A stretch of DNA of 35,151 nt from an uncultured Luminiphilus sp. (GTDB taxonomy: Bacteria; Pseudomonadota; Gammaproteobacteria; Pseudomonadales; Halieaceae), in NCBI GenBank assembly GCA_905478845.1, contig CAJQKG010000032.1, positions 1 to 35,151 on the forward strand, given 5' to 3'. The position numbers and the translations under genes were made by a program. Below the pieces are notes generated by a model. The model saw only the letters and a list, made by a program, of their open reading frames with translations, was not told where the DNA came from and ran no database searches. Position 1 is the first letter of the stretch. Each line of letters opens with the position of its first letter. Shown in pieces: positions 14,700 through 27,279 of this stretch.

Positions 14700-17600
14700 T
14701 TAATGAAAATCCCGAGATGCCACGGTCAATGTCGACAGCTGCTCGCTATGGTTTTCTAGTGCACTGGCAATGACATGGACAACACCATCACGGGCTTCTA
14801 CCGTCCCTTTGATAACGACCAGTTGGCTTGTCATAAGGGCTTGTCGATAGCGTTCTTGCACGGCCGGCCAGACAATGACGTTCATATTTCCGGTCTCATC
14901 CTCTAGCGTCAGAAACACCACCCCCGAGGCCGTGCCTGGACGTTGTCGACAGGTAATGAGTCCAGCGATACGGACAAAACGATGATGACCCAAGCGAATG
15001 AGCTCGTTCTGTGGCGTGCATTGACTAAAGGGATACTGGGTACGCAGTAACGCGAGGGGATGTGCCTTCAAACTCAGTCCAGTACTCTGATAATCAGCGA
15101 CCACTTCTTCACCCAGACTGGGTGTGGGTAGTCTGACTTCGTCACGGGTGTTGTGCTGCGGTGATGTTTCTGCGGGTAGTAGGGGGCGATGATCTTCTAG
15201 GGCCATAGTTTGCCAGTGTGTTTGATGACGATGACCGCTGATGCTCGAGAGCGCATCTGCTGCAGCAAGCGCCTCCATATTTTTGCGATCGAGCGACGCA
15301 CGTCGACGTAAATCAGCCACGTTGGTAAAGGCGCGTTGTCGGCGAACATCCGAGATGCGTTTTCCCACCGCCTGACTGAGACCTTTGACTAATCTGAGTC
15401 CGAGCCGTATCGGGGGTTGTCGGGTGTCCTGTGATGACAGCAATTGATGGTCCCAATCACTATGATTCACATCAGCCGGTAAAATCAAAACATGATGCCG
15501 CTGAGCGTCTTGTACTAATTGCGAGGGTGAGTAAAACCCCATGGGTTGGCTATTGAGCAGGCCAACATAAAAAGCAGCGGGATGATGGCATTTTAGCCAG
15601 GCGGAGACATAAGCCAATAAGGCAAAGCTCGCTGAGTGTGATTCTGGAAATCCATATCCTCCAAACCCTTTAATCTGATTAAACAGCCGATCAGCGAACT
15701 CAGGGGTATAGCCTTTATTGAGCATGCCCTGTTTTAATTTATGCTCAAAACTCAGCAGTTTGCTGTTCTTGCCCCAATTGCTGATTGCGCGCCTTAAGGC
15801 ATCCGCTTCTCCGCCAGTAAAGCCCGCTGCAACCATTGCCAGACGAATGACTTGTTCCTGAAAAATAGGGACCCCTAATGTGCGCGAGAGGACTGCCTCG
15901 ATCTCAGGGTTGGGATAGCTGATTGATTCGAGTCCTGCTTTACGCCGCAGATAGGGGTGCACCATGTCGCCCTGAATGGGGCCGGGCCTGACAATAGCGA
16001 TCTCGATAACCAGATCGTAAAAGCAAGTTGGCTTAAGTCGTGGCAGCATCGACATTTGCGCTCGAGACTCAATTTGAAAAACACCTAACGTGTCTGCCTT
16101 TTGTAGCATTCGATAAGTGGCGGGATCGTCTGGGGGAATATCTTGAATACGCTGTATACCGGCATGATCGCGATGTAGGAGCGCCAATGTTTTGCGGATC
16201 GCTGAGAGCATACCCAGCGCAAGAATATCGACTTTAAGTAGTCCGAGTGCTTCGATATCTTCTTTGTCCCATTGAATGACTGTCCGGTCCGGCATACTGG
16301 CGTTTTCGACTGGAACCAGGTTGGAAAGGGGTCCTCGACTGATGATAAACCCCCCTACGTGCTGTGAGAGATGTCGAGGAAAACCAATGATTTCTTTTAC
16401 GATGGCTAAAAAATGTCCTGCCAATTTTTCAGCACGAACGACGCCTTGATCCTCAAAACGATCGGTCAGTTCTCGTTCGCGATTCCACCAAGCTAGAGAA
16501 TTAGCCAGCTCATCGATAAAACTCGCATCGAATCCCATGGCTTTACCCACATCACGCACGGCACTGCGTGAACGGTAAGTGATGACAGTGGCTGCCAGCG
16601 CAGCACGGCGGCGGCTGTATTTCTGATAGATATATTGAATGACCTCTTCCCGTCTTTCATGCTCAAAATCCACGTCAATGTCGGGAGGTTCATCGCGTTC
16701 ACGAGAGATAAAGCGCTCAAATAGGAGTGAAATCTGCTCGGGTGAAACTTCAGTAATTTGTAGGCAATAGCAGATCACAGAGTTAGCAGCAGAGCCTCTG
16801 CCTTGACAAAGAATGTCGCGGGATTTTGCGAAGCGCACAATGTCATAAACGGTTAAAAAGTAGTACTCGTAAGAAAGCTCAGTGATGAGCTCGAGTTCTC
16901 GGTGTATCCGGTTTTGCACGGTCTCGGGAACGCCATCAGGCCAACGTTGCGTGGCGCCACGAGCAACCTCTTGACGTAAATAACTGTTGGCTGTGTGGTG
17001 TGAGGGAACGACTTCTTCCGGATATTCATAGCGCAATTCATCCAGACTAAAGTGGCACTGATCGGCGATATATCGTGTCTCGGTGATCAGTGTTTCAGGA
17101 TAGAGCGCACTCAACGTATCGAGGGTGCGGAGGTGTTGCTGACTATTAATTAATCGACGTGTTCCCAGTTTTTGTATCGGGGTATTGGCTTTGATGGCGG
17201 TCAGAATATCGTGTAGTGATTTTCGTTTGGCCGTATGCATTTGCACTTCGCCACAAGCGACCATCGGTATCTGTAAGGTCTGCGCCATATGATAACGATG
17301 CTTGAATCGTCGCCACTCATCATTGCCGAGTAGGCGACTAACACCGATCCACACGCGCCCCTTGCAGAGCCGGGTTAATTGTTGGAAGTAAACAGTCTGA
17401 TGATGGGTGTCGTCGGGTAGCAGGATGATGAGGCAGCGCTTGAGATGAAAGATGATGTCACGCAGATGGACGGTGTACTCGCCTTTGTGGCAGCGCCTGC
17501 GGGCCCGACTGATTAAGCCAGAGAGTTCACCATAGGCCTCACGATTAGGAGCCAATGCCACTAGCCGAATACCTTCGGTTAATGTGAATTCACTGCCAAT

Positions 17601-17783
17601 GATCAGTTTGAGATGATGTTCCTTAGCCGCAACGTGTGCTTTAACGACCCCGGCAAGGGAGCACTCGTCTGTTATGGCTAAAGCGTGATAGCGACACGCA
17701 GCGGCTCGAGAGACCAGTTCAGCGGGTGCCGAGGCGCCGCGCAAAAAACTGAAGTGGCTTAAACAATGGAGTTCCGCGTACAC
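14700..17783 (-). CDS. dnaE2: Error-prone DNA polymerase DnaE2 (ImuC)
   Basis: This 1027-residue C-family polymerase is the catalytic subunit of the ImuA-ImuB-DnaE2 mutasome that copies past DNA lesions. It begins with a PHP domain (AELHCLSHFSFLRGAS), then the palm with GRGSAANS and the catalytic Asp cluster PDIDVDF near residues 366-372. The helix-hairpin-helix region follows, and a C-terminal OB fold (RIAGLITCRQRPGTASGVVFL). DnaE2-type length and the ITCRQRPGTA motif separate it from the replicative DnaE1. The start is GTG 17783 with no evident Shine-Dalgarno. A LexA-type box ends only about 11 bases upstream. It is not next to imuB: a lipocalin gene lies between. Confidence 0.95.
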   Translation of the reverse strand: MYAELHCLSHFSFLRGASAPAELVSRAAACRYHALAITDECSLAGVVKAHVAAKEHHLKLIIGSEFTLTEGIRLVALAPNREAYGELSGLISRARRRCHKGEYTVHLRDIIFHLKRCLIILLPDDTHHQTVYFQQLTRLCKGRVWIGVSRLLGNDEWRRFKHRYHMAQTLQIPMVACGEVQMHTAKRKSLHDILTAIKANTPIQKLGTRRLINSQQHLRTLDTLSALYPETLITETRYIADQCHFSLDELRYEYPEEVVPSHHTANSYLRQEVARGATQRWPDGVPETVQNRIHRELELITELSYEYYFLTVYDIVRFAKSRDILCQGRGSAANSVICYCLQITEVSPEQISLLFERFISRERDEPPDIDVDFEHERREEVIQYIYQKYSRRRAALAATVITYRSRSAVRDVGKAMGFDASFIDELANSLAWWNRERELTDRFEDQGVVRAEKLAGHFLAIVKEIIGFPRHLSQHVGGFIISRGPLSNLVPVENASMPDRTVIQWDKEDIEALGLLKVDILALGMLSAIRKTLALLHRDHAGIQRIQDIPPDDPATYRMLQKADTLGVFQIESRAQMSMLPRLKPTCFYDLVIEIAIVRPGPIQGDMVHPYLRRKAGLESISYPNPEIEAVLSRTLGVPIFQEQVIRLAMVAAGFTGGEADALRRAISNWGKNSKLLSFEHKLKQGMLNKGYTPEFADRLFNQIKGFGGYGFPESHSASFALLAYVSAWLKCHHPAAFYVGLLNSQPMGFYSPSQLVQDAQRHHVLILPADVNHSDWDHQLLSSQDTRQPPIRLGLRLVKGLSQAVGKRISDVRRQRAFTNVADLRRRASLDRKNMEALAAADALSSISGHRHQTHWQTMALEDHRPLLPAETSPQHNTRDEVRLPTPSLGEEVVADYQSTGLSLKAHPLALLRTQYPFSQCTPQNELIRLGHHRFVRIAGLITCRQRPGTASGVVFLTLEDETGNMNVIVWPAVQERYRQALMTSQLVVIKGTVEARDGVVHVIASALENHSEQLSTLTVASRDFH

Positions 17784-17796
17784 GATGGCATCAATA

Positions 17797-17812
17797 CTGT
17801 ATAAATAAACAG
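17797..17812. promoter_or_regulatory. LexA/SOS box between dnaE2 and the lipocalin gene
   Basis: CTGT-ATAAATAA-ACAG fits the gammaproteobacterial LexA consensus CTGT-N8-ACAG; with flanks it reads TACTGTATAAATAAACAGTA. It is centred 22 bases upstream of the dnaE2 GTG and about 88 bases upstream of the lipocalin ATG. Bases 17792-17817 are identical to 25984-26009 at the imuA box. LexA repression of dnaE2 is well established in other bacteria; control of the lipocalin gene is inference. Confidence 0.9.
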
Positions 17813-17892
17813 TATTTTAACGATACTATTGCTCAAATGAAAAGCCTAAAACGAAATAGCGTAAACTGCGATTTGCCAGCAGTGAGTGAGTG

Positions 17893-18447
17893 ATGAAAAA
17901 GACAACGGTAGCGAGTCATATCAAACGTATCCGCAGCGTGCTGGTCGGCTTTTTGGGTCTCATGCTGCTGAGCTGTACGGGTATACCCGATGGCATTGAG
18001 CCTGTGACAGGATTTGATCAGAGCCGCTACCTGGGAACATGGTATGAGATAGCGCGACTCGATCATAGTTTTGAGCGGGGGCTGAGTGAGGTCACGGCCA
18101 CCTATGGCCTGAATTCAGATGGCAGTATCAAGGTACTGAACCGTGGTTTTGACGCAGAGGAGGGGGCTTGGCGCGAAGCAGAAGGCGTTGCTCGACTGAT
18201 GGGTGCTGCTGATGTTGCACACCTCAAAGTCTCTTTTTTTGGTCCATTTTATGGCAGCTATATCGTCTTCGAGCTGGGTGAAGGTTACGACTACGCCTTC
18301 GTTTCGGGGTTTAATCGAGATTATCTTTGGCTGCTTGCTAGGGAGCCTCACATAACGAGCGAGTTACGCAGCCATTTTATCGAGACCATGACGGCGTTGG
18401 ATTTTGATCCGGCGGAACTGGTTTGGCTGGATAAGGCTGCGGAGTGA
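17893..18447 (+). CDS. blc: Outer-membrane lipocalin, Blc-like lipoprotein
   Basis: This lipoprotein of about 184 residues has a basic N-terminus, a hydrophobic segment and the lipobox LLSC. The lipocalin signature RYLGTWYEIARLDHSFERG and a later YDYAFVSGFNRDYLWLLAR strand motif follow, as in E. coli Blc. Blc-type lipocalins bind lysophospholipids or fatty acids at the outer membrane and are linked to envelope stress. ATG 17893 is preferred over GTG 17890. The LexA box at 17797-17812 lies in its upstream region, shared with dnaE2. Its stop faces the imuB stop 16 bases away, where a GAGCGCGCTC palindrome (18454-18463) sits between the genes. Confidence 0.92.
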   Translation: MKKTTVASHIKRIRSVLVGFLGLMLLSCTGIPDGIEPVTGFDQSRYLGTWYEIARLDHSFERGLSEVTATYGLNSDGSIKVLNRGFDAEEGAWREAEGVARLMGAADVAHLKVSFFGPFYGSYIVFELGEGYDYAFVSGFNRDYLWLLAREPHITSELRSHFIETMTALDFDPAELVWLDKAAE

Positions 18448-18463
18448 GTCTGAGAGCGCGCTC

Positions 18464-19906
18464 CTAGGCGAATAGCCCGTGTACATACCAGCGACGATTA
18501 TGTCGATCCTGATACAGCCAAATAGGTTGCTTGTGAGGCGTTTGGGCAATGTAATAATCGCGGCTAGTTGGATTACTCCACCAGCAGTCTTCAATGCGTT
18601 CTGGACCATGGATGATCTCTAAAATGCCATTCCAGTACAGTTTTTTCCCTTCTTGATGAACCGGATGTGGTTCAGGCAGTAGCCAGAATGGCCGTTGTCC
18701 CAACGCGATAGTATCGGGACGATTCATCGTATGAGTGCTCTGCGTTTTGATCACGGTATCTTCTGGTAGGTGTTCTCGCCGGAAGTCGAGGTAACCCACC
18801 GCCTGTAGCCCTAATCGGCTACGTAGCCGATCCGCGAGTTCGTGTCGCGACGTTTGTTGGGTGCCGGTATGAAATAAATCTTGTGGTGGGGGAAGATCTT
18901 CTTGCAGTTGATTGGCCAGTAGAGAGAGCCCTTCAATGCCCTCAGGGAGAGTCCAGTTGTCTAGTTGTAAACAGGAAAGCGCTAGCCAGATATCGGATTG
19001 TCGATGCGCCGTTTCAGAGAAAACTTTGAAGGACTCCTTGTTGCCTTTTGGCCTAAGGCAGTGCCATTCAATGACGCCACTAGTGAGTTGGGTATTGATT
19101 AAAAAATGGCAGAAATGCGTGAGTAGTCGCTTCATGGCGGGATGGAGCTCTTGCCGGTTGTGAATATCAAAACCAAACCACAGCGTGTCTTGAAATCGGG
19201 TCGGTGGTTGATAGTCGATAATGGGTTCCTGACGTCTGCCTAGCAGTTGATTGAGCCAATCGACAAATTTTATGCCACAGCGTTTACCAATATCGGCTAG
19301 TGGAATATCGAGCAATTGTGCGAATTGACGAATACCCGCTTTTTCAAGTCGATCGACAACAGTAGGGAATTCGTCTCTGAGGAGAGAAAGCGGTAGGGGT
19401 AACAGTCGTTCAGTGAGGGGCTGCTCTGGTTGGCAAGCAAAATGGGCTTCGCAGTGGCTGAGTAACGAGGCGGCTGTACGAGTCTCCGCGACCCCCATTT
19501 TGACAGTCAGGCTTCGCAAACTCATTTCATTATGAATGCGCTGCAGTAATGCCTCTAATCCATGATGCAGTGTTAAGCAGCTTCCGACTTCAATCATTAG
19601 CGCATTACCCTGCCAGCGCTGTAAGTGTGGTGAGAGCCCATAACCCCAAGTCATTAATCGTTGCAATAGAGCGTCTTCTTTCTCAGGTGTGCGTTCCACA
19701 ATATGGGCGTCGTAATGGGTGAGTAAGGCTTGCGCCGTACTGGCACTTTGACCCGGTATGACTCCCGCACCGCGAGCCGTATCATCACAGGCGATGACAA
19801 GGCGTTGTGCGACAACAACGGTTGCTCGATTCCCGTTTAGCTCCGGCTGCTTTAGCAGGGCTTCTAGAGGGAGGGCATTAAAACGAAGACAAAGCCAGAG
19901 AGACAT
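18464..19906 (-). CDS. imuB: ImuB, inactive Y-family polymerase homologue
   Basis: This 480-residue Y-family-like protein is the hub of the mutasome, linking DnaE2 to the beta clamp. It starts MSLWLCLRFNALPLEAL, the ImuB pattern in which the catalytic Asp of active Y-family polymerases is missing. At the second acidic site it reads MIEVGSCLTLHHG, again without the SxDE catalytic pair. PQDLF around residue 345 is a plausible beta-clamp-binding motif. The C-terminus RRWYVHGLFA is a typical ImuB ending. The start is ATG 19906. The LexA box and a 36-base palindrome lie directly upstream. It faces the lipocalin gene tail-to-tail instead of being joined to dnaE2. Confidence 0.93.
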   Translation of the reverse strand: MSLWLCLRFNALPLEALLKQPELNGNRATVVVAQRLVIACDDTARGAGVIPGQSASTAQALLTHYDAHIVERTPEKEDALLQRLMTWGYGLSPHLQRWQGNALMIEVGSCLTLHHGLEALLQRIHNEMSLRSLTVKMGVAETRTAASLLSHCEAHFACQPEQPLTERLLPLPLSLLRDEFPTVVDRLEKAGIRQFAQLLDIPLADIGKRCGIKFVDWLNQLLGRRQEPIIDYQPPTRFQDTLWFGFDIHNRQELHPAMKRLLTHFCHFLINTQLTSGVIEWHCLRPKGNKESFKVFSETAHRQSDIWLALSCLQLDNWTLPEGIEGLSLLANQLQEDLPPPQDLFHTGTQQTSRHELADRLRSRLGLQAVGYLDFRREHLPEDTVIKTQSTHTMNRPDTIALGQRPFWLLPEPHPVHQEGKKLYWNGILEIIHGPERIEDCWWSNPTSRDYYIAQTPHKQPIWLYQDRHNRRWYVHGLFA

Positions 19907-19908
19907 CC

Positions 19909-19944
19909 CCGCATACTACTGTATTTTTATACAGTAGTATGCGG
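19909..19944. repeat. 36-base perfect palindrome centred on the imuB LexA box
   Basis: Two 16-base arms, 19909-19924 and 19929-19944, are exact reverse complements around a TTTT centre (AAAA on the imuB strand). The LexA box forms the inner part. The outer end touches the CCCC just before the imuB start codon. It could form a strong hairpin in RNA reading through from either side, or cruciform DNA. Confidence 0.9.
19919..19934. promoter_or_regulatory. LexA/SOS box between imuB and the DUF885 gene
   Basis: CTGT-ATTTTTAT-ACAG fits the LexA consensus; with flanks it reads TACTGTATTTTTATACAGTA. It begins 12 bases upstream of the imuB ATG and is 112 to 187 bases upstream of the possible DUF885 starts. 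Its spacer differs from the identical pair at dnaE2 and imuA. Confidence 0.9.
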
Positions 19945-20121
19945 AGTGTTGATTAAAAGTGCCGGCAGCAACTCTGATGAGGTGCTATTTTTACTGCACT
20001 AGATCGCCTCGTTTTCCACGATCACTGCTTTGCTTGAGAAACTGCCATGTCTATTGCCTCTCGTAATTGTCCCTGTAATGCCCCTTTTAGGATCGCTAAT
20101 GTGACCGATACCCGTTACGGG

Positions 20122-21981
20122 ATGGCCCGTTTCTGCTCGTCATTTTGGCTCATTTGGGTCCTATTACTGACGTCTTGTGGAGGGTCAGATGCGGACTCAA
20201 ATGCGCTATCTGAGGTGGCATTAGTCCCTCCGATTTCGGCTGAGCAGCAGCGATTAGAGGATTTCTTCACCGCCACTTGGGAGGAGGATCTCGTTCGTTA
20301 TCCCGCTTCTGCCAGCTATCTAGGCGTGATCGATCGCCAGGATCAGTGGAATGATGTCACGGAATCTTTCCAGCTGGCGTCGCTGGCAATCACTCGCCAG
20401 CGACTGGATTTTCTCAACGGTATCGACACCTCCCAGTTATCGGATGACCGCTTATTGTCCTATCGATTGTACCGACTTGACCTTGAGCGCACGCTGGCGG
20501 GTGCCCCTTTTCGTCATCATCGTTATGTGATCCATCAGTTCCGCGGACCGCACACCAGTGCAGTGAGTCTGCTCATTAATGTTCACGCCATTAACTCAGT
20601 ACAAGATGCCGAGGCTTACATCGCGCGTCTGAATAATTTGCCCCTCTATTTTGACGGTGTGGTTGAGCAGATACAGATTCGTGCTGATAAAGGGCTCTTT
20701 TTAGTCGATTGGATGATCCCCAAAATTATCGAGTCGGCGAGCAATGTGTTGCTGGGGGTCCCCTTTGATGCCGGCGATGAACCGTCAGTGATTTGGGCTG
20801 ACTTCAAAGACAAACTGGATCAATTGGCACTAGCACCTGCCGAGATGAATCGACTGCGAGAGGATGCGCGGAGCGCCTTACTCAATGCAGTACGGCCTGC
20901 GTACCAAAAGTTGATTGCGGCAGTCAGGTCGCAGCAAGACCGTGCCATGTCCGAGGACGGGGTGTGGCGATTCTCTGATGGCGAGGCGTTCTATGCCAAT
21001 CGATTAAATGTCTTTACGACCACTCGCTTGACGGCAGCAGAAATTCATCAAGCAGGGCTCGATAATGTTGCGCGACTGCACGGTGAAATGCGCACTGTGA
21101 TGGCTGAGCTGGGCGAAGAGGGTGACTTAACGACATTTTTAACTCGTGTCAGAAATGATCCGGCCTTGCGCTTTCCTAACACGGAGGAAGGGCGATCGAC
21201 CTATCTTGACGCTGCGAGGGCGTCGATCGACGACATGGCGAAGCGGTTGCCAGCGTATTTTGGTGTTCTGCCTCGTGCAGAGTTGGTGGTAAAACGCGTC
21301 GAGGCTTATCGTGAGCGCTCAGCGGGCAAGGCGTTTTATCAGCGTCCACCATCAGATGAGTCCCGCCCGGGGATTTATTACGCGAATCTTTACGATATGA
21401 ACTCGATGCCCAAAACAGACCTTGAGGCACTGGCATTTCACGAAGGATTACCCGGGCATCATTTGCAACTGGCGATCGCCGCAGAGCTGAGCCATGTCCC
21501 TGACTTTCAGCGTCATACCCGGTTCACCGCGTTTAGCGAGGGCTGGGGTCTTTATTCGGAATACTTGGCCAAAGAAATGGGCTTTTACCAAGACCCTTAT
21601 TCCAATTTTGGGCGTTTATCGATGGAGCTTTGGCGCGCAGCTCGTTTGGTAGTGGATACGGGGCTTCACCATAAACAATGGACTCGAGAGCAAGCGGTGG
21701 CGTACCTGGTTGCTAATACGCCGAATGCGGTTTATGACTGCCAGCGAGCTATTGAGCGTTATATCGCCATGCCCGGACAGGCAACCGCTTATATGATCGG
21801 CAAGTTGCGAATTGTTGAACTGAGAGAAATGGCGCGGCAGGCGCTGGGCGCTCGTTTTGATATCCGGGCTTTTCACGATGTGGTGCTCGGGTCCGGCGCC
21901 GTCCCCCTTGACCAACTTGAAGTCCATGTTCAGCGACTGGTCCAAGATGTTCTGGCTACGGAGTCGTCAGCGGATAGCTGA
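20122..21981 (+). CDS. DUF885 family lipoprotein, putative metallopeptidase-like
   Basis: The product has about 619 residues. From ATG 20122 it opens MARFCSSFWLIWVLLLTSCGG, a lipoprotein signal with lipobox LTSC, so it is probably membrane-anchored in the envelope. The frame is open back to ATG 20047, but that adds 25 residues ahead of the signal. DUF885 motifs are present, notably AFHEGLPGHHLQ near residue 440 (an HE...HH metal-site-like motif) and FSEGWGLYSEYLAKEMG. These resemble metallopeptidase zinc sites, and peptidase activity is suspected for the family but not demonstrated by this sequence. It is divergent from imuB with a LexA box between them. katG follows on the same strand. Confidence 0.87.
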   Translation: MARFCSSFWLIWVLLLTSCGGSDADSNALSEVALVPPISAEQQRLEDFFTATWEEDLVRYPASASYLGVIDRQDQWNDVTESFQLASLAITRQRLDFLNGIDTSQLSDDRLLSYRLYRLDLERTLAGAPFRHHRYVIHQFRGPHTSAVSLLINVHAINSVQDAEAYIARLNNLPLYFDGVVEQIQIRADKGLFLVDWMIPKIIESASNVLLGVPFDAGDEPSVIWADFKDKLDQLALAPAEMNRLREDARSALLNAVRPAYQKLIAAVRSQQDRAMSEDGVWRFSDGEAFYANRLNVFTTTRLTAAEIHQAGLDNVARLHGEMRTVMAELGEEGDLTTFLTRVRNDPALRFPNTEEGRSTYLDAARASIDDMAKRLPAYFGVLPRAELVVKRVEAYRERSAGKAFYQRPPSDESRPGIYYANLYDMNSMPKTDLEALAFHEGLPGHHLQLAIAAELSHVPDFQRHTRFTAFSEGWGLYSEYLAKEMGFYQDPYSNFGRLSMELWRAARLVVDTGLHHKQWTREQAVAYLVANTPNAVYDCQRAIERYIAMPGQATAYMIGKLRIVELREMARQALGARFDIRAFHDVVLGSGAVPLDQLEVHVQRLVQDVLATESSADS

Positions 21982-22003
21982 TTCACGCGTTGGGCGGCCC
22001 GTA

Positions 22004-22018
22004 ATCGATAAAATCGAT
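22004..22018. repeat. Small inverted repeat upstream of katG
   Basis: ATCGAT-AAA-ATCGAT lies 90 bases before the katG ATG and 22 bases after the DUF885 stop. It could be an operator half-site pair or simply AT-rich chance; it does not match the OxyR pattern as I know it. Confidence 0.3.
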
Positions 22019-22040
22019 GGCATTTTCTAATTTAATCAGC

Positions 22041-22070
22041 TTGTCAGCTTCTTGGCGAGGTGCGTACAGT
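22041..22070 (+). promoter_or_regulatory. Possible sigma70 promoter for katG
   Basis: TTGTCA at 22041-22046 and TACAGT at 22065-22070 are 18 bases apart, an acceptable -35/-10 pair 38 bases before the katG ATG. This is pattern matching only. Confidence 0.35.
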
Positions 22071-22107
22071 GCAGGCTTGTACGAGTCATTTTTTAGAGGG
22101 CAATATC

Positions 22108-24369
22108 ATGAAAGGCAAAGCAATAACTTTGACGATTGCACACGTGGCGTTAGCGGCGACTCTGATGGCGCTGCCCGCCCAAGATGTCATGGCGCGGAGC
22201 ACACCCAAAAGCGCACAAGCGTGGTGGCCAACGAATCTTGACCTGACCCCGCTTCGGCAGAATGAGCATAATGCGGATCCTTTGGGCGCGAATTTTGACT
22301 ACGCGTCTGCCTTCGCGACGCTGGATCTTGAGGCATTGAAGGCCGACGTCAACGAGACGCTGACGCAATCGCAAGCCTGGTGGCCCGCTGATTATGGCAA
22401 CTATGGACCTTTCTTTGTTCGAATGGCTTGGCACAGCGCCGGCACCTATCGTACCAGTGATGGTCGTGGCGGTGCGGATGGTGGTCAGCAGCGTTTTGAG
22501 CCACTCAATAGCTGGCCAGATAATGGCAATCTCGATAAGGCGCGACGCCTTCTGTGGCCGATAAAGCAACAGTACGGTAGCCAGATCTCATGGGCCGATT
22601 TAATGGTGCTGGCTGGCAACGTGGCAATGGAGAATATGGGTTTTAAAACCTTTGGGTTTGCGGGTGGTCGCACAGATGACTGGGAACCCGAGTGGGTCTA
22701 TTGGGGTCCCGAAGCCAAGATGTTGGCCGATGAGCGTTATGGTGAGGGTCGTCAGTTGCGTAAAGGACTCGCCGCGGTCCAGATGGGACTGATTTATGTG
22801 AATCCCGAGGGACCCAATGGTAATCCTGACCCGCTGTTGGCGGCTCATGACATCCGCGAAACCTTCGGTCGGATGGCGATGAACGATGAAGAAACCGTCG
22901 CGCTGATTGCCGGAGGTCACTCATTCGGTAAGGCGCACGGTGCGCATAAGCCTGACGATTGTGTTGGACCCGAGCCGACTGCCGAGGTGATCAGCGAACA
23001 AGGGCTGGGTTGGAAGAATGTCTGTGGAAAAGGCAATGCAGAGGATACGGTGACGTCTGGCCTAGAAGGCGCCTGGACGGCTACGCCGACCCAGTGGTCG
23101 ATCATGTATTTGGCCAATCTTTTTGCTTACGACTGGGAGCAAACTCGCAGTCCTGCAGGGGCACTGCAGTGGCAGCCAAAGGATAATGCCGCGGCGGGCA
23201 CGGTCCCCGATGCGCACCTTGCAGAGGTCTCCCACGCCCCTGTCATGTTTACGACTGACCTTTCACTGAAATTTGATCCCAGTTATCGCGAGATCTCCCA
23301 GCGGTTCCTCGAGAATCCTGCGGAGTTTGAGCTGGCGTTTGCGAAGGCATGGTTTAAGTTGACGCATCGCGACATGGGTCCAAAGATCCGTTATCTGGGT
23401 GACGATGTGCCTGCAGAGACGTTGGCCTGGCAAGACCCGCTCCCGGACCGCGACTACAAGCTGATCAGCGACCGGGATGTTCGCAAGCTGGAAGCTGCTA
23501 TTGCGGACAGTGGATTGTCGAATACGCAACTGGTGAGCACCGCGTGGGCCTCAGCCTCGACCTATCGCGCCACCGATATGCGTGGCGGTGCCAATGGTGC
23601 TCGCATTCGTATTGCGCCTCAAAATCAGTGGGCAATTAATAACCCGACCGAGTTGGCCGAGGTGATGGCCGTGCTGGAGGAGGTGCAGTACGAGTTCAAC
23701 AGCGGTGTGTCGCGAGGCAAGCAGGTTTCGCTGGCAGACGTTATTGTTCTTGCAGGCAATGTGGGTGTTGAGCGTGCGGCAGAAGCCTTTGGTGTGGAGG
23801 TCTCCATTCCCTTTAGCCCCGGGCGGGTCGATGCAATCGAGGGATCGGTAGACGCGGCTTCATGGTCGGTACTGGAGCCTCGCCATGACGGTTTCCGCAA
23901 TTACATGGCGGATCTCGGCTTCATGTCGCCCTCGCAAGCGCTGATCGACAAAGCGGATAGGCTGAATCTGACCGTATCGGAAATGACCGTATTGCTGGGT
24001 GGCATGCGGGCACTTAACGCAAACGCTGGGGGAAGTGCTCACGGCGTATTGACTGACCGCCCAGGAGTGCTCAGCAATGATTTCTTCGTTCACTTGCTGG
24101 ACATGACGACCGCTTGGGCGCCCTCAGATGAGGCGTATGTGTTTGAAGGGCGTGATCGCCAAACGGGTGATCTTAAATGGACTGCGACAGAATTCGATCT
24201 CGTACTGGGCTCCAATGCTGAGCTGCGTGCGGTGGTGGAGTTTTACGCTTTTGATGAAAGTCGGCAGCGCTTTGTGAAAGATTTTGCGAGTGCGTGGACC
24301 AAAGTGATGGATGCCGACCGTTTTGATATCGAGGGCTCTGGCAACGTCGTGGTCAGCGTTGCACAGTAA
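22108..24369 (+). CDS. katG: Catalase-peroxidase with N-terminal signal peptide (exported KatG)
   Basis: This 753-residue bifunctional heme enzyme removes hydrogen peroxide. The distal triad is R105, W108 and H109 in [13 protein letters not shown], and the proximal His is H271 in [13 protein letters not shown]108, Y230 and M256 are present to form the Met-Tyr-Trp crosslink needed for catalase activity. The degenerate second half begins around [14 protein letters not shown]. Translation from ATG 22108 (AGAGGG at 22095-22100) gives a signal peptide: a basic MKGK start, a hydrophobic stretch and ALPAQDVMA before RSTPKS. The enzyme is therefore predicted to be periplasmic. The longer frame from 22060 lacks a ribosome binding site. 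A strong terminator follows. Confidence 0.95.
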
Positions 24370-24387
24370 CAAGGCTTGGCTTGATTT

Positions 24388-24415
24388 AAAAAACCCCGCA
24401 CTTGCGGGGTTTTTT
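24388..24415. terminator. Intrinsic terminator after katG
   Basis: AAAAAACCCCGC (24388-24399), loop ACTT and GCGGGGTTTTTT (24404-24415) make a perfect GC-rich stem followed by T on the plus strand and by T on the minus strand. It can end katG transcription and may also stop minus-strand transcripts coming from osmC. Confidence 0.93.
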
Positions 24416-24435
24416 ATGTCACAACACTTTATCTG

Positions 24436-24495
24436 ATGAGACTTTACGCAATGAAACTTTACGCAATGAAACTTTACGCAATAAGACTTTACGCA
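24436..24495. repeat. Four tandem 15-base repeats between katG and osmC
   Basis: Units at 24436-24450, 24451-24465, 24466-24480 and 24481-24495 follow ATGARACTTTACGCA, with the last unit starting ATAAG; a partial fifth unit follows. Units two and three are identical. The array sits between two convergent gene ends. Because 15 is a multiple of three, the plus strand reads as an open frame of 23 codons from ATG 24436 to TAG 24505-24507, encoding a (M/I)(K/R)LYA pentapeptide repeat. No Shine-Dalgarno precedes it, so it is not called as a gene. Confidence 0.9.
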
Positions 24496-24596
24496 ATAAA
24501 ACAGTAGATTGGCATGACTGGCCGTACTGCTATTAAATCGCTCCGCTGGGTCGTCAGATGGCTGTCGTTAGACGGCATCGCATAACGGGGATGCCC

Positions 24597-25034
24597 TTAC
24601 TCGCGATGAATGTCGACATCAAGGTGTACCGTCGCGGTCAATGAATTAGTGATGAGGCAGCTTTTTTCCGCTTTCTGTAGAACCCGTGTAATGCGCTCTT
24701 CTTCCATGTCGCTGGGCACGCTAATACGAACCGCGAGGCGGATTTCCGTAAAGTGAGGTGTCCGATCGACGCGCTCTAGTGTGCCGGTAGCTTCGCAGTC
24801 AATGGCATGCCATGTCACGCGCGAGGGGGCTGCGATAGCGCGGAAGGTCAAGACAAAGCAGTCCGCTACAGCGGCAACCAAGAGCGCTTCCGGCGACCAT
24901 TGGTCACCGGGACCACCGAATTCTTTAGGCGCATCAGTAGCAAGGTTTGCTAACCCATCGCTGGTGACCTGAACCACTGATTGAGTGGCATTTGCGGTGG
25001 CGAGGCAACGATAATGATGGGGGAAATCGTGCAT
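24597..25034 (-). CDS. OsmC family peroxiredoxin-like protein
   Basis: This 145-residue protein carries both conserved OsmC cysteines: the first in VADCFVLTF (about residue 59) and the second in AEKSCLITNSL (about residue 126). OsmC/Ohr proteins reduce organic hydroperoxides with these two thiols in the cytosol. It resembles the broader OsmC/YhfA branch more than a clear Ohr, so organic hydroperoxide specificity is not assured. The start is ATG 25034. It lies downstream of imuA on the same strand with a 125-base gap, so SOS-driven read-through is possible. Confidence 0.88.
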   Translation of the reverse strand: MHDFPHHYRCLATANATQSVVQVTSDGLANLATDAPKEFGGPGDQWSPEALLVAAVADCFVLTFRAIAAPSRVTWHAIDCEATGTLERVDRTPHFTEIRLAVRISVPSDMEEERITRVLQKAEKSCLITNSLTATVHLDVDIHRE

Positions 25035-25159
25035 GGACGTCTCAATTTAAAAAAGCGAAGGCTAACATAGCCGACCGACTGGGTATAAGACAAAAGCCAC
25101 TGGGGCCGTTACGCTTTATCTTAACGGCACTGGCTGTCCTGCAGCGTCAAGAACCGTTG

Positions 25160-25906
25160 CTAGGCAGAGGGGCGATAACCGGGTGTGGGCTGACGGCTGT
25201 CTAACTGATCGATAAAGGACCAGGTAGCGGGAGCCGTAGGCAATGACTCATCGGCAGGTAAGGGAATCGTCGCGCTTTGAACACCGCCTCGCTGTTTAAT
25301 AATTTTGACTTGTCGATAGCCTTCAACGTGGATTTTTAAGCTGGCGGGAGAAGGCTGTGCCAATGCGTCAGAGGAGCGGAATAGTATGGCTAATGTGCCG
25401 TGACTGGCTGCGGCCAACTGGATTTTCCGCAACTCTGCATAACGATAGTCCGTGGCGCCAAGCCAAGCAAAGACAGTACTACAGGTGCTGCTGCGCAACG
25501 CCTGTTCAACTGACCACAGTAACTCCTCACGATTGCGAGGGTGCACCAGCATAATTTCTTGCAGATCAATGCCTTCTCCTGCAAGCAGTGGGGCATAAGG
25601 CGTGTAGGGGGGATCAATAAAGACTTGCCAGCGCGATTGGCCAGATAGTTTTTTCATGGTGGGCATGAATACCCCCATCGCATCGAGCCCGCACTGGTCA
25701 CTAATGACCTCGATACATCCCCCCAGCGGCCAGCCACTGTTGTACAGTTGCGCATCGAGAGTATCAAAACCGGTTGCGATAGTTTGCTCCGAGTGCGCCC
25801 CTGCATTAGCCGACGGTGCACTGGGGTCTAAAAAAACGCGATCCTTCTGGCTCATACCCTGCCAAGTATCGGCGCGGCGAAAAATGTCTTCGAGTAGATA
25901 GTTCAT
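25160..25906 (-). CDS. imuA: ImuA, mutasome accessory protein (RecA/SulA-like)
   Basis: This 248-residue protein has the ImuA core IATGFDTLDAQLYNSGWPLGGCIEVIS followed by PTMKKLSGQSRWQVFIDPPYTPYAP and a later AWLGATDYRYAELRKIQLAA, all aligned with the RecA-like ImuA family. ImuA works with ImuB and DnaE2 in damage-induced mutagenesis, probably by modulating RecA. The start is ATG 25906, marked by AGGAG in the preceding leader. The frame stays open 41 codons further up, across the LexA box, but that stretch is not family-like. It is about 5 kb from imuB, separated by osmC, katG and the DUF885 gene. Confidence 0.9.
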   Translation of the reverse strand: MNYLLEDIFRRADTWQGMSQKDRVFLDPSAPSANAGAHSEQTIATGFDTLDAQLYNSGWPLGGCIEVISDQCGLDAMGVFMPTMKKLSGQSRWQVFIDPPYTPYAPLLAGEGIDLQEIMLVHPRNREELLWSVEQALRSSTCSTVFAWLGATDYRYAELRKIQLAAASHGTLAILFRSSDALAQPSPASLKIHVEGYRQVKIIKQRGGVQSATIPLPADESLPTAPATWSFIDQLDSRQPTPGYRPSA

Positions 25907-25943
25907 GGCGTACTCCTGTTTTAGACTGCTGTTTTTGTGTGTC

Positions 25944-25960
25944 ATTCCTTTGCAAGGAAT
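25944..25960. repeat. 17-base palindrome in the imuA leader
   Basis: ATTCCTT-TGC-AAGGAAT is a perfect inverted repeat of 7-base arms, 38 bases upstream of the imuA ATG and 28 bases from the LexA box. It could be a second operator or a leader hairpin. No equivalent is seen at dnaE2 or imuB. Confidence 0.6.
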
Positions 25961-25988
25961 TGCCGACTTAAAAGCGGCTGTAACAATA

Positions 25989-26004
25989 CTGTATAAATAA
26001 ACAG
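25989..26004. promoter_or_regulatory. LexA/SOS box between imuA and the MFS transporter gene
   Basis: CTGT-ATAAATAA-ACAG is identical to the dnaE2 box, and identity extends over 26 bases (25984-26009 versus 17792-17817). It is 82 bases upstream of the imuA ATG and ends nine bases before the MFS ATG at 26014, so LexA bound here would cover the start region of the transporter gene. Confidence 0.9.
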
Positions 26005-26013
26005 TATTTGAGC

Positions 26014-27279
26014 ATGACAAAAAAAGCAAGCAAGGATTTTTCTGACCGTCGTGAAATGCGACAGGTGCATCGATCTGCCTTATCAGATTCGCGGTTTCGT
26101 CATTATTACCCGGTGAGCTGGTTTTCGAGTCTGGGGGCCTGGTTATTGCGCTTTTTACTGGGCTGGAGTGCCTGGGAGCTCACCCATTCAGCCACTTGGG
26201 TTGGCATTACAGGTGCTCTCATGTTGGCGCCTGCACTGCTGTTATCGCCCTGGTTTGGTATTTTGTCGGACCGCGTCAATCCACGACAGGGTTTGCGGCT
26301 CTCTATGCTGCTTCACAGCACTATCGCGCTGGTCGGTGCCATCACCACTTGGCTGGGATGGTACGACCGTTTTGCACTCGCCGGGCTAGCTACCGCGTTG
26401 GGTATTGCCACTTCTTTGCACTCACCGATGCGCCTCGCCATGGTGCCCTTACTCGTCCCCCGGGCTGCTTTACCCAGCGCTGTCGGCTATTCGACAATGT
26501 CGTTTAATGTCGCGCGCATGATCGGGCCGGCAATCGGTGCGGCTCTGGTGGCGCAGACAGAGACAGCCTTTGCCTGGCTGGTCTCTATGCTGCTGTTTAT
26601 CACGTCATTTGCAGGACTCTCCCGACTCACTGTAGTGCGAGATGCGCCCTCAGAAGCCCCCAACTCGTACTGGACGCAGTTGTCTGATGGATTTCAGCAC
26701 TTGGTTCGCCAAACCGATCTTAAGTTATTGCTGCTGTTCACGGCGCTCAACGGTTTGCTCGGTCGCACGATCATTGAATTACTGCCGGCATTGTCTGGAC
26801 AGGTGCTGAGAGGGGGGTCATCTGAGCTGGCCATCCTAGTCGCGATGGCAGGCTTGGGCTCGGTACTGGGCGGGCTGTTGGTAAGCCGTCAGTCAGCCAA
26901 CCTGGCGCGTTTGCTGGGGCTCGTCTATGGCGCTATTGGACTCGCGTGCTTGACGCTGATGAGTTTGCAATGGGTCGCTGGCGTCGTGGCAATGGGCTGC
27001 TGGGTATCGTGTTTAAGCACGATGACGACGGTGGCGGGTACGGGATGTCAGACGCTCATTCAATTGACGGTTAGCCCACGCTTTAGGGGTCGGGTATTGA
27101 GCGTCTGGACGATGATGGCGATGGGTGTCCCGGCGGTGGGCGCTGCGGTCGTAGGCGTCAGCGTCGATGGTTTTGGATTCGAATGGGTATCGGCTGTGAC
27201 GGGCACGATAGGGTTGTGTGCCCTCGGATTACTCTACCTTAAGCGTTCTGCTTTGCTCGCTGGCGCTGCGGATCCTTGA
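26014..27279 (+). CDS. MFS transporter (MFS_3/EntS-like exporter family)
   Basis: This membrane protein of about 421 residues has many hydrophobic segments in the MFS layout. The family motif appears as LSPWFGILSDRVNPRQGLRL in the loop after the second segment, and MSFNVARMIGPAIGAAL resembles EntS-type exporters. Substrate is unknown; this branch often exports siderophores or drugs. ATG 26014 is chosen over TTG 26008; ATG 26056 is a further option that would remove a polar N-terminus. No Shine-Dalgarno is evident for any of them. A LexA box sits immediately upstream. The 3' end overlaps holA by 46 bases on opposite strands. Confidence 0.87.
   Translation: MTKKASKDFSDRREMRQVHRSALSDSRFRHYYPVSWFSSLGAWLLRFLLGWSAWELTHSATWVGITGALMLAPALLLSPWFGILSDRVNPRQGLRLSMLLHSTIALVGAITTWLGWYDRFALAGLATALGIATSLHSPMRLAMVPLLVPRAALPSAVGYSTMSFNVARMIGPAIGAALVAQTETAFAWLVSMLLFITSFAGLSRLTVVRDAPSEAPNSYWTQLSDGFQHLVRQTDLKLLLLFTALNGLLGRTIIELLPALSGQVLRGGSSELAILVAMAGLGSVLGGLLVSRQSANLARLLGLVYGAIGLACLTLMSLQWVAGVVAMGCWVSCLSTMTTVAGTGCQTLIQLTVSPRFRGRVLSVWTMMAMGVPAVGAAVVGVSVDGFGFEWVSAVTGTIGLCALGLLYLKRSALLAGAADP

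Follow-up and report, generated by a model that had tools for sequence, protein, structure and literature searches.

Dispersed, collinear imuA, imuB and dnaE2 genes in Luminiphilus: very probably an SOS operon that came apart into a LexA regulon

All three genes of an ImuA-ImuB-DnaE2 mutasome are encoded on the minus strand, ordered imuA, imuB, dnaE2 and spread over 11 kb, in a stretch of 35,151 nucleotides from an uncultured Luminiphilus sp. of the family Halieaceae (contig CAJQKG010000032.1, or C32, one of 293 in a 2.54-Mb assembly; the whole stretch is called the window here). Each gene has its own LexA box, and order and strand are kept wherever neighbouring members were found on one contig across the family. 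These observations are very probably explained by an SOS-inducible mutasome that descends from a contiguous operon, its members having separated without being rearranged and each detached one carrying a LexA box of its own. Luminiphilus is used below as a label for the whole genus, G-numbers denote genomes and L-numbers loci.

An earlier note on this DNA had described the dispersed minus-strand genes in canonical order, and family profiles and coordinates bear this out. The window holds an ImuA homologue, an ImuB without the catalytic glutamate, a DnaE2 with PHP, alpha NTPase, finger, HHH and OB domains and, as judged from sequence only, LexA control of these genes. It does not hold a contiguous imuABC operon with one promoter, as gaps of 5.3 kb (imuA/imuB) and 0.7 kb (imuB/dnaE2) separate the genes and are partly filled by genes on the opposite strand. 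Of the span from 14700 to 26029 given in the earlier note, the start stands for dnaE2 and the end does not hold for imuA, which likely begins at the ATG at 25906; by inspection the TTG at 26029 is over-long, since its frame would run through the LexA box. The identity of ImuB was checked by profile alignment because it gave a 40-bit Pfam match and no NCBIfam match. A profile of 15 genus sequences aligned end-to-end with an ImuB from another family, where the operon is contiguous (hhalign probability 100, E 6.8e-43). In an alignment to Pol IV structures, the column that we take to be the catalytic Glu position is without Glu in all 15 members, and residues 343-345 read DLF, invariant in 15/15, which could be the core of what we assume to be the clamp-binding motif.

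In the whole 2.54-Mb assembly the 18-bp core of the LexA box, ACTGT-N8-ACAGT, is present at just three sites (17796-17813, 19918-19935 and 25988-26005 of the window), upstream of exactly dnaE2, imuB and imuA, and the reversed control pattern at one. A looser pattern with one mismatch, counted in the window only, is not above chance (9 sites vs 5.4 expected, with a count of 9 or more in 11 of 100 shuffles), and the weight therefore rests on the strict sites and their conservation. For the comparison of genomes a box was counted when at least 10 of the 12 letters of TACTGT-N8-ACAGTA were found within 300 bp upstream. By this count imuA (35/35), imuB (33/33) and dnaE2 (33/33) have a box at every Luminiphilus locus scored, as expected from the earlier claim that each fragment has its own. 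No box was found upstream of osmC (0/21), katG (0/16), lptE (0/26), holA (0/31) or FMO (0/20, with two spurious counts at locus edges set aside), and shuffled upstream regions of the scored Luminiphilus genes reach 10/12 in 0.5 to 4%. One full LexA DNA-binding domain, presumably resembling that of E. coli, is encoded in the genome on a contig other than the window.

Gene positions were compared in 58 genomes (37 of the genus, including the window's own, and 21 of other families) and in 115 genomes of the family. Every same-contig imuA-imuB pair is in canonical order on the same strand (87/87; Luminiphilus 27/27, other genera 60/60), with gaps from 65 bp to 30 kb, and so is every same-contig imuB-dnaE2 pair (64/64; Luminiphilus 36/36, other genera 28/28), with gaps up to 52 kb. 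The split layout thus recurs throughout Luminiphilus, closed genomes included, and the same order is found in the single-contig genomes G005, G030, G122, G058, G065, G080 and G106, which rules out an assembly artefact. Compact imuA-imuB-dnaE2 cassettes with imuB-dnaE2 gaps of 17-38 bp are found in G088, G141 and G143 (3 of the 28 other-genus pairs). Their ImuB is 30-33% identical to that of the window and imuA of the native type lies elsewhere in these genomes, so the cassettes, locus L264 among them, possibly replaced a split system. With these genomes set aside, imuB and dnaE2 are between 681 bp and 52 kb apart.

It is highly improbable that the three genes are chance neighbours or that the layout is an artefact. 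Three-locus imu layouts do occur in other bacteria, according to one sentence of a review (PMC3901139), but all same-contig pairs of the family and the single-contig genomes listed above agree in order and strand, outgroups are contiguous, and the gene trees keep the Halieaceae mutasome genes together, contrary to an origin from unrelated lineages.

Some loci in the family show peculiarities of their own. At the Luminiphilus loci L098, L103 and L104 no imuA was found in the 8.6-10 kb upstream of imuB; in this subgroup imuA is further off or relocated. Whole-genome dnaE2 matches in G078 and G106 (contig C1 in both) start near residue 225, though the fetched locus has the N-terminal piece, perhaps reflecting a frameshift, decay or a sequencing error. 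The imuB matches of G089-G092 lie inside unusually long open frames (600-790 aa).

The relation between gap and box indicates that an ancestral operon became a regulon, since close genes have no box at imuB and split genes have one. A contiguous ancestor, as the earlier note had proposed, agrees with the outgroups: of the 11 genomes from other families with a complete gene set, 8 have imuA-imuB-dnaE2 contiguous. In these other families, which belong to the same order, a box is lacking at imuB (0/12) and at contiguous dnaE2 (0/8), whereas detached dnaE2 has one in 3/3; imuA has a box in 9/12, and in 5/8 of the contiguous operons. Outside Luminiphilus the rule was scored in 58 Halieaceae genomes, with G062 left out as a contig edge with imuA elsewhere. 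At imuA-imuB gaps of up to 516 bp imuB has no box of its own (0/12), and at gaps of at least 773 bp it has one in 45/46. The lone exception, G090, has a true gap near 490 bp, because its imuB match begins at residue 162.

The box state at imuB changes three times on the ImuB tree, four times on the ImuA tree and twice on the leuS tree (41 loci); all trees are quick, and those of ImuA and ImuB carry long-branch warnings. In G124 and G131 (L218, L223) imuA and imuB are 99 bp apart, imuB has no box, and the genomes are nested among box-bearing relatives in the ImuB tree; L130 and L153, with the same layout, nest likewise in the leuS tree. This arrangement is probably a re-fusion of imuA and imuB with loss of the spare box. 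We infer the direction of box change in this and the other cases, since parsimony counts cannot separate gain from loss.

Several observations weigh against an operon that came apart without rearrangement. The members are on different contigs in 21/108 imuA-imuB and 43/107 imuB-dnaE2 pairs, and counting same-contig pairs favours short distances. At least four genomes (G074, G100, G108 and G142) carry no dnaE2 in over 100 kb of sequence downstream of imuB, so relocation does happen. Among the eight contiguous operons of the outgroups, three lack an imuA box of at least 10/12 (scores 9, 7 and 8), and the box of the detached outgroup dnaE2 at L081 extends over the mapped start, so that it escapes a count that excludes the start. 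L124 (G117) has a box despite a gap of 310 bp, contrary to the simple rule. The box upstream of lexA itself reaches only 9/12 in the window's genome, and 10/12 in G015 and G124. The box counts are, furthermore, not independent events because the genomes are related.

The dissolution of an operon into a regulon remains the preferred explanation. Genes would have accumulated between the mutasome members with no change of order or strand, and any member that lost its upstream neighbour would carry its own LexA box. LexA would then bind upstream of imuA, imuB and dnaE2 and repress them separately, and DNA damage would derepress all three together, presumably as three transcripts. ImuB is expected to dock ImuA and the clamp, and DnaE2 to perform the mutagenic synthesis. 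A single family here provides a series of operon break-up, from close genes without a second box to split genes with one, over gaps from 65 bp to more than 50 kb and with a probable re-fusion. Such a series makes it testable whether a new promoter must precede the splitting of an operon. The family-wide pattern is of more interest than the window.

The earlier suggestion of splitting by insertions holds in outline; for the imuB-dnaE2 gap, relatives point instead to an integron platform. A full integron integrase gene, intI, precedes dnaE2 in 21 of the 71 non-Luminiphilus Halieaceae genomes with dnaE2, in 12 genera. Of 60 dnaE2 loci, 17 have a full intI directly upstream on the same strand, 12 a partial one and 31 none, where some of the 31 have little upstream sequence and two of the 12 partials comprise only 31 and 36 residues. 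Four further full cases lie outside this set (G136, G137, G140 and G146). The loci with intI upstream of dnaE2 include L241, L244, L245, L249, L250, L269, L274, L283 and L290; eight of the nine proteins scanned are above the TIGR02249 cut-off of 265, the seven complete ones at 411-431 bits, and one, a remnant of 104 aa, does not reach it. In G070, G071, G075, G076 and G085 intI is truncated, which suggests its decay between the box and dnaE2.

In the other Halieaceae a LexA box is found within 300 bp of dnaE2 in 41/57 and is absent in 16/57. Loss of LexA control at dnaE2 was considered and rejected, since in 13 of the 16 misses a box precedes intI, intact or as a remnant, and intI ends 6-36 bp short of dnaE2. 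The other three are the compact cassette at L264, with its box before imuA, G104 at a contig edge, and G106 with none in the 1.7 kb available. The box stands before intI only, at nine full and five partial copies, and is then common to intI and dnaE2.

It is quite possible that an integron platform separated imuB from dnaE2 in the ancestor of the Halieaceae, with box and intI placed before dnaE2 and cassettes filling the gap, and that Luminiphilus later lost intI and kept the box and the lipocalin gene. This proposal refines the preferred explanation for one of the two gaps. It agrees with hairpins resembling attC sites, which a custom scan and visual inspection placed upstream of intI in five of six genomes; the counts against the mean of three shuffles were 9/1.3 in G073, 3/0.3 in G124, 4/1.0 in G136, 3/0.0 in G100, 7/3.7 in G079 and 2/0.3 in G064, the last having no convincing attC within 5 kb although it bears intI. 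A relaxed scan of intervals without full intI gave an excess in L304 (7 vs 1.7) and L314 (8 vs 2.0) and a deficit in L296 (0 vs 2.3). Two stricter scans gave zero everywhere, shuffles included, and were hence uninformative, and Rfam at the gathering threshold returned one match at four loci, a cspA element, and nothing attC-like. Direct repeats are present in G073 (two 118-nt copies, 81%) and short ones in G124. Observations in Luminiphilus itself weigh against the proposal, as no IntI match lies beside its dnaE2, the window's genome has no IntI match at E 1e-12, and the window shows no attC excess (1 vs 1.3 in shuffles).

An order-wide search gave an IntI match in 78/194 genomes, 73 of them outside Halieaceae; among the best 25 of these 73 none has dnaE2 within 1.5 kb of intI, as compared with 4 of the 5 Halieaceae loci listed with them. 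Luminiphilus and g23 branch from an unresolved fork of the DnaE2 tree, next to several lineages that bear intI, which agrees with the platform proposal. The 14 changes that the presence of intI needs on that tree, against 20, 21 and 20 in three shuffles, weigh against it. IntI and DnaE2 distances agree in part only (Mantel r 0.33, p 0.015), so some intI genes were probably exchanged. The position of the box also speaks in part against the platform, since it lies solely between intI and dnaE2 at five full and six partial copies and in both positions in G123 and G132; G104 and G130 are at contig edges. An old association of intI and dnaE2 with many losses and some exchange is the likeliest account.

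It is likewise quite possible that a single SOS switch governs both point mutagenesis and cassette shuffling. LexA box, intI and dnaE2 would form one transcription unit, the integron in the former imuB-dnaE2 junction would have made the gap, and lineages losing the integron, such as Luminiphilus, would have kept the box as the dnaE2 promoter. On this reading the family would show an operon turning into a regulon, with imuA and imuB rejoining and a spare box being lost in G124 and G131. Were intI and dnaE2 co-transcribed, one message would combine two sources of variation that SOS drives, point mutation and the rearrangement of cassettes. SOS/LexA control of integron integrases is established (PMC8946536, PMC3108266), and the LexA box just before intI in those systems is found likewise in the Halieaceae relatives. 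The relatives differ in that intI directly precedes dnaE2; neither dnaE, imu nor operon occurs in the main text of PMC3108266, and neither dnaE nor operon in PMC8946536. PMC12926913, which treats DnaE2 partners, does not contain the word integron. We found no report of an intI-dnaE2 unit in the open-licence literature, as represented mostly by titles and the beginnings of abstracts.

Dispersal of the mutasome genes as such is already known, and the window is a variant of it. According to the review sentence mentioned above, almost all imu layouts exist, including three genes at separate loci, each with its own SOS box as in the window (PMC3901139). Collinearity, the gap/box series and the integron link are absent from that sentence, to which the comparison is confined. 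The lexA2-imuA-imuB-imuC operon of Pseudomonas putida, as outlined in the same source, resembles the window in its three genes, their order and LexA control, but is a single transcription unit including lexA2, whereas the window has three separated units and the LexA gene is on another contig (PMC3901139). In mycobacteria, as far as the excerpted accounts go, a detached dnaE2 is likewise under LexA control, but the system is in two pieces with imuA'-imuB kept together, whereas that of the window is in three, collinear within 11 kb (PMC6511836, PMC3919608).

The genes between the mutasome members were named osmC, katG, DUF885 and lipocalin in the earlier note, names that Pfam and NCBIfam profiles confirmed (Table 1). 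Between imuA and imuB lie osmC on the minus strand and katG and DUF885 on the plus strand, and between imuB and dnaE2 the lipocalin gene on the plus strand; each mutasome gene is divergent from a plus-strand gene, katG, DUF885 and the lipocalin gene being on that strand and osmC alone on the minus.

Table 1. Features of the window: mutasome genes, neighbouring genes and LexA boxes
Feature	Position	Strand	Evidence
dnaE2 (imuC), error-prone C-family polymerase, 1027 aa, GTG start	14700..17783	-	NF004225 1403 bits (cut-off 939)
LexA box TACTGTATAAATAAACAGTA, 11 bp upstream of dnaE2, 75 bp upstream of divergent lipocalin gene	17795..17814		12/12 match
Gene for a Blc-like lipocalin lipoprotein, in the imuB-dnaE2 gap	17890..18447	+	PF08212 124 bits
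imuB, inactive Y-family polymerase homologue, 480 aa	18464..19906	-	Pfam IMS 40 bits
LexA box TACTGTATTTTTATACAGTA, in the upstream region shared by imuB (at 10 bp) and the divergent DUF885 gene (at 110 bp)	19917..19936		12/12 match
DUF885 putative lipoprotein, divergent from imuB	20047..21981	+	PF05960 586 bits
katG catalase-peroxidase, N-terminal extension; part of genus only	22060..24369	+	TIGR00198 1068 bits
osmC-family peroxiredoxin, directly 3' of imuA	24597..25034	-	PF02566 73.6 bits
imuA, 248 aa, ATG start	25160..25906	-	NF033429 184.7 bits (cut-off 150)
LexA box TACTGTATAAATAAACAGTA, 80 bp upstream of imuA, 7 bp upstream of MFS ATG (26014)	25987..26006		12/12 match
MFS transporter, divergent from imuA, ATG 26014	26014..27279	+	PF05977 105 bits

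These neighbours had led to the suggestion that mutagenesis is tied to peroxide and envelope defence; in a wider form of it, LexA would govern the mutasome together with osmC, katG, DUF885, the lipocalin and the MFS gene as one functional island. Boxes are indeed found in Luminiphilus upstream of the lipocalin gene (34/34), the MFS gene (22/23, 8-11 bp from the mapped start) and DUF885 (18/26), because these share divergent intergenic regions with mutasome genes. Peroxide defence falls outside the regulon, as neither osmC nor katG has a box. The gene content of the imuA-imuB interval also varies: DUF885 is present in 19, osmC in 16 and katG in 8 of the 25 Luminiphilus loci with both genes, and at other Halieaceae loci tblastn often finds no lipocalin or DUF885 within the sequence available. 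A peroxide and envelope SOS regulon was accordingly rejected on box counts and variable content, and the wider functional island is unlikely; osmC, katG and DUF885 are variable passengers. LexA may possibly still act on the lipocalin, DUF885 and MFS genes through the intergenic regions that they have in common with the mutasome genes.

The lipocalin of the window scores 200 bits, below the Blc cut-off of 267, yet is above Pfam's cut-off. KatG, DUF885 and the lipocalin have signal-like N-termini, as judged by eye. An MFS homologue lies beside imuA in 24 of the 25 Luminiphilus loci examined (15 by tblastn and 9 by phmmer), with L042 at a contig edge.

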